Below are positions 5,708-58,355 of a DNA stretch of 64,000 nucleotides, in pieces. The first letter of the stretch is position 1. Each line of letters begins with the position of its first letter. Below the pieces are notes generated by a model. That model worked only from the letters and a program-made list of their open reading frames with translations, did not search any database and had not been told where the DNA came from. Location of the stretch: NCBI RefSeq assembly GCF_019264485.1, contig NZ_JAHVAA010000011.1, positions 620,001-684,000 on the forward strand. Direction: 5' to 3'. The DNA is from Sediminibacterium sp. GTDB taxonomy: Bacteria; Bacteroidota; Bacteroidia; Chitinophagales; Chitinophagaceae. Position numbers and translations under genes: made by a program.

Positions 5708-6223
5708 ATGTTAGCAGCCTTTCGTTATATCAGCACTTTTGTATTTGATGTAGACGGTGTAATGACCGATGGCAGTTTGTTGATATTGCCTGATGGTATT
5801 ATGGCACGTCGCATGAATATTAAAGATGGTTATGCTTTACAGCTGGCTATTAAAAAAGGGTACAGGGTGTTGGTTATTTCAGGAGGTGATGCCCCGGAGG
5901 TAAAAGACCGTTTGAACAAACTCGGAGTTGCCGATGTTTGGATGAAAACCCATCATAAGAAAGAAGTGTTGGCCGATTACCTGAAAAAACAGGGTATTAC
6001 TAAGGAACAGGTTTTATATATGGGTGATGATATTCCTGATCTGGATGTAATTCAACTGGCAGGTTTACCTTGTTGCCCTTCGGATGCAGTAGAGGAAATA
6101 AAAGACAAATCGATTTATATTTCTCCCGTAGCAGGAGGTGCTGGCTGTGTAAGAGATGTGATTGAAAAAGTAATGAAACTACGCGGTGACTGGAATGAAG
6201 ATACTTCCGTAAGGTCCAGGTAA
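5708..6223 (+). CDS. HAD-family KdsC-like phosphatase (3-deoxy-D-manno-octulosonate 8-phosphate phosphatase)
   Basis: FVFDVDGVMTDGSL, ISGGDAPEVKDRL, YMGDDIPDLDVIQLAGLPCCPSDAVEEIK. Confidence 0.9.
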   Translation: MLAAFRYISTFVFDVDGVMTDGSLLILPDGIMARRMNIKDGYALQLAIKKGYRVLVISGGDAPEVKDRLNKLGVADVWMKTHHKKEVLADYLKKQGITKEQVLYMGDDIPDLDVIQLAGLPCCPSDAVEEIKDKSIYISPVAGGAGCVRDVIEKVMKLRGDWNEDTSVRSR

Positions 6224-6282
6224 CATTTATTTGATACCCCTTGTTCAGACTCATTGTTTATCTTGTATCATAAATTCTTTTT

Positions 6283-7215
6283 TTGAAATTAATAACCGCT
6301 TTTTTACAGTTGGTGCGCTGGCCCAATCTGCTGTTTATCATGCTCACTCAGCTTTTGTTTGAGTATTGTATTTATGAGCGTATTTATGGCGCAGCAGAAG
6401 GGTTGAGTCAATACCAGTTCTGGTACATTATAATTGCTTCTGTTTTTATTGCTGCAGCCGGAAATATTATTAATGATTATTTCGACCTGAATATCGATCA
6501 GGTAAATAAACCTGATAAGGTTGTGGTAAACGTTGTTATCAACAGGCGTTGGGTTATCTTCTGGCATATGTTACTGAGTATGCTGGGTTTGTTTTTTACG
6601 GTAGTAGCCTTACCTGTATCACTTTACTGGCACCTGGTACTGGCCAATATTGGGAGTGTGTTATTACTCTGGTTTTATTCTACCAATTTCAAAAAGCAAT
6701 TACTGGTTGGTAATATTGTGATCTCCCTGCTTACTGCATGGGTAATATTAATCCTGTTTTTTGCGAAACAACCATTGCAGATCGAACATCTTTTATCTGC
6801 CGGGCATAATGAAATCCGTTTTTTCCGTCTTGCCATGCTTTACGCGTCTTTTGCATTTGTGATTTCACTTATCAGAGAAGTGGTAAAAGATGTGGAAGAT
6901 ATGGAAGGCGACAGAAAATATGGCTGTAAAACATTACCTATTGTTTGGGGCGTTCAGGCAGCTAAAATATTTGTAGCAGTGTGGCTCGTGGTTCTCATAG
7001 CTGCGCTGACTATTTTACAACTCTATGTATTGCCTCTTGGTTGGTGGCATAGTGCCTTATACTGTCTGATTGCCATAATAGTACCTTTGATCTGGATTTT
7101 CATACAGCTCTTTAAAGCGTCTACTCCTGCCGATTTCCATCGATTGAGCTCGGTTATAAAACTGGTTATGCTTACAGGTATTTTATCGATGGTATTTTTC
7201 AGGATATATGAGTGA
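6283..7215 (+). CDS. UbiA-family prenyltransferase
   Basis: NIINDYFDLNIDQVNKPDK (NDxxD) and DVEDMEGDRKYGCKTLP; apparent TTG start. Confidence 0.9.
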   Translation: MKLITAFLQLVRWPNLLFIMLTQLLFEYCIYERIYGAAEGLSQYQFWYIIIASVFIAAAGNIINDYFDLNIDQVNKPDKVVVNVVINRRWVIFWHMLLSMLGLFFTVVALPVSLYWHLVLANIGSVLLLWFYSTNFKKQLLVGNIVISLLTAWVILILFFAKQPLQIEHLLSAGHNEIRFFRLAMLYASFAFVISLIREVVKDVEDMEGDRKYGCKTLPIVWGVQAAKIFVAVWLVVLIAALTILQLYVLPLGWWHSALYCLIAIIVPLIWIFIQLFKASTPADFHRLSSVIKLVMLTGILSMVFFRIYE

Positions 7216-7246
7216 GTGGTGAGTAATGAGTAGTAGCGAGTAAGAG
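7212..7246 (+). repeat. 7-mer word array (GTGAGTR family) beginning in the stop codon of the UbiA gene
   Basis: GTGAGTG|GTGAGTA|ATGAGTA|GTAGCGA|GTAAGAG. Confidence 0.7.
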
Positions 7247-7296
7247 ATTTTTTTGAGCGTAAAAAATAAATATAATCGCAGTCGAGTTCCCCATAT

Positions 7297-7380
7297 TGAC
7301 CATTGACCATTGACCATTGACCATTGACCATTGACCATTGACCATTGACCATTGACCATTGACCATTGACCATTGACCAT
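7297..7380. repeat. Exact tandem repeat, 12 x TGACCAT
   Basis: 84 bp of uninterrupted 7-bp units ending 1 bp before the maf ATG at 7382. Confidence 0.99.
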
Positions 7381-7381
7381 C

Positions 7382-7963
7382 ATGCAACACATCATTCTAG
7401 CATCACAATCTCCTCGCCGTAAAATGTTACTCGAATGGGCAGAAGTACCCTTTGAAGTAATTGTTAAGCCAACAGATGAATCCTTTCCGGCTGAAATGCC
7501 TGTTGAAGAGGTGCCGGTGCATATTGCAAAAGAAAAAGCGATGACAGTAAGAAAATATGTGCAGGATGCTTATCATGGGGAGTATGCTGACAGAGCCATT
7601 CTTGCAGCAGATACAGTGGTGGTGCTTAATACAGAGATCATCGGTAAACCCAATGACAGGGATCATGCCATTGAGATATTAAAAAAATTATCGGGCCAAA
7701 CACATCAGGTAATTACAGGTGTTGTGATTCTGTCGGGTGAGTCAGAAATGAGTTTCGCAGACATTACAGAAGTTCAGTTCCATCCACTTACAGAAGAACA
7801 GATCATTTTTTATGTAGATAAATACCAGCCTTATGATAAAGCTGGTGCTTATGCCATACAGGAATGGATAGGGGTGGTGGGTATTCAATCCATCAAAGGC
7901 GATTTTTACAACGTGATGGGCTTGCCCGTAAGCAGGGTGGTAAAAGCACTTCAACGTTTATGA
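7382..7963 (+). CDS. maf: Maf-family nucleotide pyrophosphatase
   Basis: MQHIILASQSPRRKMLLEWAEVPFEVI...ADTVVVLN...GKPNDRDHAIEILKKLSGQTHQVITGV; ATG preferred over the TTG at 7373, which lies in the repeat. Confidence 0.93.
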   Translation: MQHIILASQSPRRKMLLEWAEVPFEVIVKPTDESFPAEMPVEEVPVHIAKEKAMTVRKYVQDAYHGEYADRAILAADTVVVLNTEIIGKPNDRDHAIEILKKLSGQTHQVITGVVILSGESEMSFADITEVQFHPLTEEQIIFYVDKYQPYDKAGAYAIQEWIGVVGIQSIKGDFYNVMGLPVSRVVKALQRL

Positions 7964-9298: not shown

Positions 9299-9322
9299 GT
9301 CCTATGAGAAATTTACCTGCAA

Positions 9323-9371
9323 CTTGTAGCTTGTGACTTGCAGCTTCAAGCCACAAGCTACAAGCTGCAAG
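9323..9371. repeat. In-phase 7-mer palindromic word array (CTTGNNG family) between convergent genes
   Basis: CTTGTAG|CTTGTGA|CTTGCAG|CTTCAAG|CCACAAG|CTACAAG|CTGCAAG; stem 9323-9339 / 9348-9364 pairs 16 of 17. Confidence 0.95.
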
Positions 9372-10656: not shown

Positions 10657-10687
10657 CCTATTTTTGTGGTTTGAAAGTCAGTCAGAA

Positions 10688-10812
10688 AGACCGGAAGTCG
10701 GAAAGTCCGAAAGAAGGTGCTCTGATATGCAGGAGACTTGTAAAACAATTACAGGTACTCGTTAATTAAACTTTCAATCTTTCGGACTTTCGGACTTCCC
10801 GACTTCCGGTCT
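10688..10812. repeat. 8-mer word array hairpin upstream of lipA
   Basis: Left AGACCGGA|AGTCGGAA|AGTCCGAA; right CTTTCGGA|CTTTCGGA|CTTCCCGA|CTTCCGGT|CT, with CTTTCAAT immediately before. Confidence 0.93.
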
Positions 10813-13581: not shown

Positions 13582-13685
13582 AAGCAATAAGTTACAAGCT
13601 ACAAGCAACAAGCCTCAAGCTGCAAGAAAATAAATGTTTATCAACACAGATCAACTTGTAGCTTGAGGCTTGTTGCTTGTAGCTT
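13582..13685. repeat. 7-mer word array hairpin (AAGCNNC / CTTGNNG family) between convergent genes
   Basis: 31-bp arms 13596-13626 and 13655-13685 pair at 30 of 31 positions; left array starts with AAGCAAT|AAGTTAC at 13582; right arm followed by T run. Confidence 0.97.
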
Positions 13686-32998: not shown

Positions 32999-33005
32999 TC
33001 AGGTA

Positions 33006-33066
33006 GTTGATAGTCCATGGTCCATAGTAGATTCCTGCTATGGACCATGGACTATCAACTATGGAC
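33006..33066. repeat. 7-mer word array hairpin, perfect 22-bp stem (GTCCATR family)
   Basis: GTTGATAGTCCATGGTCCATAG / CTATGGACCATGGACTATCAAC, 10-nt loop, plus trailing TATGGAC. Confidence 0.98.
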
Positions 33067-34660: not shown

Positions 34661-34712
34661 GTGAATGGTCAATAGTGAATATAATCGTACCTATTCACTA
34701 TTGACCATTCAC
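34661..34712. repeat. 7-mer word array hairpin, perfect 21-bp stem (GTSAATR family)
   Basis: GTGAATG|GTCAATA|GTGAATA / TATTCAC|TATTGAC|CATTCAC, 10-nt loop; preceded by TTGAATC|GTCAATC. Confidence 0.98.
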
Positions 34713-36518: not shown

Positions 36519-36553
36519 TGGCAATATTCCGGATAAACAGGCGTTGTAAAATT

Positions 36554-36611
36554 GTGAATGGTCACTCGTGAATAGCAACAATTCATTCACGATTCACGAT
36601 TGACCATTCAC
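36554..36611. repeat. 7-mer word array hairpin (GTSAATN family)
   Basis: GTGAATG|GTCACTC|GTGAATA ... CATTCAC|GATTCAC|GATTGAC|CATTCAC; arms 36554-36573 / 36592-36611 pair 19 of 20. Confidence 0.93.
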
Positions 36612-36674
36612 GATGTTCATAACTAAACCAGCAATCATTTTTTAAATCCTTCATCAACCATCATCTTTGCACCC

Positions 36675-46979: not shown

Positions 46980-46990
46980 ATAATAGAAGT

Positions 46991-47058
46991 GAGTAGTGAG
47001 TAGTCAGTAGCGAGTTGGTATTTGTACTCACTACTGACTATTCACTACTCATTTTTTT
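46991..47058. terminator. 7-mer word array hairpin with T tract after smc (GTGAGTA family)
   Basis: GAGTAGTGAGTAGTCAGTAGCGAGT / ACTCACTACTGACTATTCACTACTC, 23 of 25 paired (both others G-U capable), 10-nt loop, followed by ATTTTTTTT. Confidence 0.93.
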
Positions 47059-47076
47059 TATCCGCGCCGATATTTC

Positions 47077-58226: not shown

Positions 58227-58355
58227 TTACTTCTTTTTAGCGGCTTTTTTAGCAGCTTTTTTAGGAGCAGCTTTTTTAGCAGCTTTTTTAGGAGCAGCTT
58301 TTTTAGCAGCTTTCTTTGGTGCAGCTTTCTTAGCAGCTTTTTTTGCAGTTGCCAT
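58227..58355 (-). CDS. 42-aa Lys/Ala/Pro repeat protein (histone H1-tail-like); absent from ORF track because it is under 60 aa
   Basis: MATAKKAAKKAAPKKAAKKAAPKKAAKKAAPKKAAKKAAKKK*, with promoter-like and terminator-like flanks. Confidence 0.8.
   Translation of the reverse strand: MATAKKAAKKAAPKKAAKKAAPKKAAKKAAPKKAAKKAAKKK

Follow-up and report, generated by a model that had tools for sequence, protein, structure and literature searches.

A heptamer array in front of maf in Sediminibacterium is the 3' part of a dispersed intergenic element with a conserved core

The perfect heptamer array that runs up to the maf start codon in Sediminibacterium sp. is no isolated microsatellite: comparison with other sites and species shows it to form the 3' part of a short non-coding dispersed element (~150-170 bp). 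In this element a degenerate heptamer 5' arm is followed by a ~45 bp core module and then by the heptamer array. The best reading, to which we assign a probability of about 0.6, is that slippage and ectopic recombination have shaped a tolerated intergenic repeat; a copy-number switch of maf is not supported, and the element is probably no gene switch. The source genome (3.64 Mb in 15 contigs) was compared with one genome per species; parts of the genomes were read base by base and the remainder was covered by pattern and model searches. The features of the locus and the relevant hairpins of the window (the whole stretch of 64,000 nucleotides that was analysed) are as follows.

6283..7215, + strand: UbiA-type prenyltransferase gene (ubiA), the upstream gene, normally ~15 bp from maf in relatives (spacer survey)
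7208..7243, + strand: degenerate 5' heptamer arm of GTGAGTA-type words (GTGAGTG GTGAGTA ATGAGTA ...), from TRF
7248..7292, + strand: core module TTTTTTTGAGCGTAAAAAATAAATATAATCGCAGTCGAGTTCCCC (nhmmer 7243-7301, E ~1e-11; genome profile search)
7295..7380, + strand: heptamer array (ATTGACC)12.3, the expanded 3' arm, a perfect tract
7382..7963, + strand: maf, Maf family nucleotide pyrophosphatase (NCBIfam TIGR00172, 158.7 bits against a cut-off of 117)
34661..34712, no strand assigned: intergenic word hairpin with arms GTGAATGGTCAATAGTGAATA / TATTCACTATTGACCATTCAC, in the vocabulary of the maf array and unexpanded, ATTGACC in its 3' arm
36548..36617, no strand assigned: intergenic word hairpin of the same vocabulary as that at 34661, 3' arm ATTCACGATTGACCATTCACG
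46980..47061, no strand assigned: word hairpin of GTGAGTA vocabulary, directly after a stop codon, with a T run at its 3' end

The period-7 tract is perfect over 86 bp (7295-7380), corresponding to 12.3 copies of ATTGACC with 100% matches in TRF. Read in another register, it holds twelve exact TGACCAT copies at 7297-7380, giving 11 overlapping doublets where 100 shuffles predicted none, and only C7381 lies between it and the maf ATG at 7382. TRF, the doublet count and the TIGR00172 start thus bear out the original prediction that twelve copies end 1 bp before maf. The start is also that from which most orthologues align at residue 1, the nearest named maf being that of Sediminibacterium goheungense (81% identity). 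The array does not, as had been proposed, make up the whole region upstream of the ATG: the ubiA-maf spacer is 166 bp (7216-7381), of which the array is the final 86 bp and the initial ~79 bp consist of the degenerate GTGAGTA arm and the core module. The 5' arm overlaps the ubiA stop codon (7213-7215), uses the words of the hairpin at 46980-47061 and lies where the 5' arms of the S. goheungense copies lie. As perfect intergenic 7-nt direct repeats, the tract falls within what is described as an intergenic heptamer tandem repeat, which also admits near-perfect units. A count over 594 kb of the source genome gave seven period-7 and two period-8 perfect runs with four or more tandem copies, and none at any other period from 4 to 15; in a Markov control, periods 7 and 8 lacked runs even of 3 copies.

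Alignment of all pure TTGAC-type arrays from sampled stretches of the source genome and S. goheungense revealed a common block before the array. This block, ~45-55 bp long and in many copies ending GTCRAGTTYC, follows a degenerate heptamer arm with words of the GTGAATG or GTGAGTA kind. Searched with a profile of the block, the source genome yielded five good module copies (the core module at maf being common to four more sites there), S. goheungense ~15 copies and a third Sediminibacterium species five model matches, three of them strong; together these amount to about 25 element sites over three species. Among the 101 genus genomes searched with the profile, two further matches appeared (E 4e-4), neither resembling the element. 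In all array-bearing copies the array occupies the same flank of the core, and one and the same module can be followed by arrays of the ATTGACC, ACTCACT or TTGATTT type.

Both unit and copy number at shared loci differ between species, with one genome per species. In the S. goheungense ubiA-maf spacer a recognisable module is followed by a pure (TTGATTT)13.1 array ending directly at the maf ATG. Because this module shows weak similarity (nhmmer E about 5e-6, identity about 50%), the case for homology at maf depends on module and position together. The recent expansion deduced earlier from the perfect identity of the units agrees with this different pure array at the same site, which would fit replacement as well. 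At a shared locus on contig C3, the source genome has only ATTGACC+ATTCACG, S. goheungense at least 14 ACTCACT units and the third species ~10 ATTGACC units; at another, on C13, mixed arrays in one species face eight pure units in the other. The element can also correspond to a plain word hairpin (480k in the source genome versus 513k in S. goheungense) or to a patchwork of other words (507k in S. goheungense versus 487k in the source genome), or be present in one species only: C6:105.8k is occupied in S. goheungense while the orthologous C12:146.3k of the source genome is a short element-free gap, and 497k is occupied in the source genome while its S. goheungense counterpart is without the module. 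C12:143.8k of the source genome may be a reversed copy relative to C6:108.5k of S. goheungense, on a weak model match (E 0.03).

Between species, orthologous modules are 51-59% identical and non-orthologous ones 53%, while closest copies of one species reach 87-96%; the module of the window is closest to the copy at C8:497195 (87%). Since copies of one species resemble each other and orthologues are no closer than non-orthologues, the modules appear to have been homogenised or re-dispersed within each species. Judged from this module similarity, ectopic recombination or gene conversion between copies is probably the cause, and recombination is favoured because the arrays form long blocks of identical homology spread over the genome.

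The array is also related to a broader class of intergenic hairpins, whose inverted arms have a 7- or 8-nt period and which are common in the source genome and S. goheungense. In the window, intergenic hairpins with arms of degenerate 7-/8-nt tandem words lie at 9318-9369, 10680-10812, 13596-13685, 33004-33061 and 46980-47061; window hairpin words include AAGCNAC, AAGTCCGG, GTGAGTA, GTCCATA and others, and each arm is closely mirrored by its partner. Genome-wide this class has at least 12 vocabularies. A word family common to the array and the hairpins at 34661 and 36548, suggested earlier, is confirmed by ATTGACC in the 3' arms of both. More widely, a GTSARTR x3 pattern was found in 76 of 200 Chitinophagaceae genomes and 53 of 104 genera, with anything between 0 and about 400 matches in a genome; the reversed-pattern control gave next to none in most genomes and at most 40 in any. 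Pure heptamer arrays are found again in further genera, among them one of the same family where (TATTGAC)n directly abuts the start codon of dnaE, which encodes DNA polymerase III alpha; in one genome the contig, C31, ends within this array. Repeats of other kinds were also seen. At 58231-58348 the window holds a 12/15/27-bp tandem repeat, TTTTTTAGCAGC, which probably encodes a lysine/alanine-rich repeat on the minus strand, and S. goheungense C1:231964-232708 contains tandem tRNA-like units with a repeated hairpin, TCCCCACAGTACTGTGGGGA, between them.

A perfect array immediately upstream of a start codon invites the idea, put forward in the original prediction, that its copy number switches maf expression, and there is precedent: in the H. 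influenzae hmw1A promoter, more copies of a 7-bp repeat lower expression (PMC8262952). The two cases share a heptamer array upstream of a gene, but hmw1A encodes a surface adhesin with experimentally shown phase variation, whereas maf is a housekeeping gene. Most maf orthologues are without any array: across 78 orthologous pairs the median ubiA-maf spacer is 14.5 bp, and it is below 60 bp in 64 of the 78. Relatives usually manage with ~15 bp, so the array is dispensable for maf. Where heptamer words occupy this gap (the source genome, S. goheungense and Sediminibacterium sp. Gen4) their vocabularies differ; in Foetidibacter luteolus the words are degenerate. No TAnnTTTG promoter lies between ubiA and maf, the sole match in 6200-7400 being inside ubiA at 7082. 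Moreover, the 7 nt ahead of the ATG stay as they are when whole units are gained or lost, and the A residues at -3, -6 and -13 of this spacer correspond to positive initiation determinants in F. johnsoniae (PMC6847099). The start-codon context is therefore constant whatever the unit number, and the same arrays stand at stop codons elsewhere, which together make a switch very unlikely. Only 2 of 20 module copies abut a start codon, both at maf; most lie at convergent gene ends, none of the 20 lies between divergent genes, and at several sites the array reaches to within a few bp of the convergent neighbour's stop codon. As arrays mostly abut the stop codons of convergent genes, the array end at the maf start is incidental. 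This placement, together with the unrelated unit in the S. goheungense maf spacer and the occurrence of elements in both orientations relative to co-directional genes, argues against the array being bound by a regulator of translation or transcription, as has been suggested for the TAACTGA repeats of Beggiatoaceae. The geometry is the same, the largest TAACTGA class ending 1 nt before the start codon (PMC4679880), and the (TATTGAC)n array at dnaE would be in keeping with such a role, which we nevertheless regard as highly improbable. A role for the element and its hairpin relatives as transcription terminators or 3'-end stabilisers, with the array a by-product of growth of a terminator arm, is unlikely, though less so. 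With a home-made gene caller, whose stop codons are reliable and starts approximate, word hairpins fell into 22 convergent, 36 co-directional and 6 divergent regions, against 97, 412 and 95 gene pairs (convergent versus divergent, Fisher p=0.0018 for all pairs and 3e-5 for regions of at least 60 bp). One S. goheungense element copy folds strongly (z=-7.0), and the hairpin at 46980 carries its T run. Intrinsic terminators are GC-rich hairpins with a U run at gene 3' ends; here the placement fits, but T runs near word hairpins exceed background only slightly (17 of 81, or 21%, versus 13.8%), folding of the element at maf is weak (-6.8 kcal/mol, z=-2.0), the maf array has no self-structure (MFE 0) and the S. 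goheungense maf array is incapable of pairing with its own 5' arm. The placement fits terminators or plain tolerance of gene 3' ends alike. Rfam gave no gathering-level covariance match at four array-bearing loci, and only a chance match around the window array (16.6 bits against a 90-bit cut-off).

The constant side of the array, the presence or absence of copies between species and the nearly identical, species-specific copies could also reflect a non-autonomous mobile element of fixed polarity, whose core would be recognised by an enzyme acting in trans that makes or tolerates the 3' heptamer tail. No target-site duplication or fixed ends were seen at the copies, however, and this explanation is doubtful. 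A Y1/RAYT transposase, present in 148 of 200 genomes of the family, was considered as the mover and rejected: the element shares with REP/RAYT systems the form of dispersed intergenic palindromes, but the RAYT gene has its own palindrome, CCCGGATTGAAATCCGGG, and no word hairpins beside it. This gene, on contig C11, is the sole Y1/RAYT transposase gene of the source genome, and repeated copies of that palindrome flank it. Somewhat less probable still is a new class of small non-autonomous element whose 3' heptamer tail would be built by a dedicated repeat-adding or copying activity; such an activity would be able to switch unit and would give the fixed polarity and the wholesale replacement of units at the same site. 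That the array was collapsed or wrongly extended during assembly is the least credible explanation, and extremely improbable. Six S. goheungense contig ends (C1, C2, C3, C4, C5 and C6) fall in (ATTGACC)n arrays of ~97 bp, so such arrays break assembly, but the 86 bp window array is internal to a 775 kb contig, none of the seven source-genome contig ends that were read lies in an array, and related arrays occur at many sites in several species. Contig C7 of S. goheungense terminates just past an element at 90.3 kb and its first 35 kb are letter-identical to the first 35 kb of C5; that assembly seems to hold the stretch twice.

Under the preferred reading of slippage and recombination, what entered the normally ~15 bp gap between ubiA and maf would have been the element itself or else an ancestral word hairpin, with core and array gained afterwards. 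The array would have grown, and in other lineages been replaced, by replication slippage in 7-bp steps. Slippage alone fails to explain the constant array side or the wholesale replacement of units. RecA-type ectopic recombination or gene conversion, proposed because dispersed copies carry identical arrays, would probably copy modules and arrays between sites and so yield species-specific modules; re-insertion by some mobilising enzyme would give the same pattern. Growth would halt where selection begins, at a neighbour's start or stop codon, and the maf start would tolerate the array, since the 7 nt ahead of the ATG are identical for every whole number of units. The array would then be selectively neutral for maf.

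Several known repeats resemble parts of this element. Cyanobacterial STRR heptamers are plain tandem heptamer runs. Period 7 is favoured and slippage the proposed agent both there and, as described in PMC4679880, in long simple sequence repeats with 7-nt units (Mrazek et al. 2007); these two are, in the latter case according to that description, plain tandem runs, whereas the Sediminibacterium array is one end of a dispersed structured element. A close parallel is with the TAACTGA heptamer direct repeats, which are intergenic, often end 1 nt before a start codon and occur sporadically across genomes, including Bacteroidetes (MacGregor 2015, PMC4679880). Heptamer units, an intergenic position, short repeat-free spacers in relatives and contig breaks within repeats are common to both. 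However, ATTGACC/TGACCAT is no rotation or reverse complement of TAACTGA, and one fixed unit there contrasts with several interchangeable units here, accompanied by a conserved core module and inverted arms. Membership of the TAACTGA class would also call for most copies to stand directly upstream of starts in forward orientation; the Sediminibacterium copies stand mostly at gene 3' ends, the pair at maf excepted. No open-access paper on heptamer hairpins in Chitinophagaceae or Sediminibacterium was found with the terms used. Heptamer arrays before starts and a general excess of 7-nt repeats are thus known, and the element with a core and a replaceable array looks like a new form of such intergenic repeats.

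Simple heptamer arrays are thereby tied to a bigger structure, a dispersed element whose core is conserved, which explains why arrays recur at many sites, why contigs break in them and how array types are swapped. An array before a start codon need not be a switch. With this element, the origin, spread and continued homogeneity of 7-bp arrays become open to test, a question left by the TAACTGA repeats.
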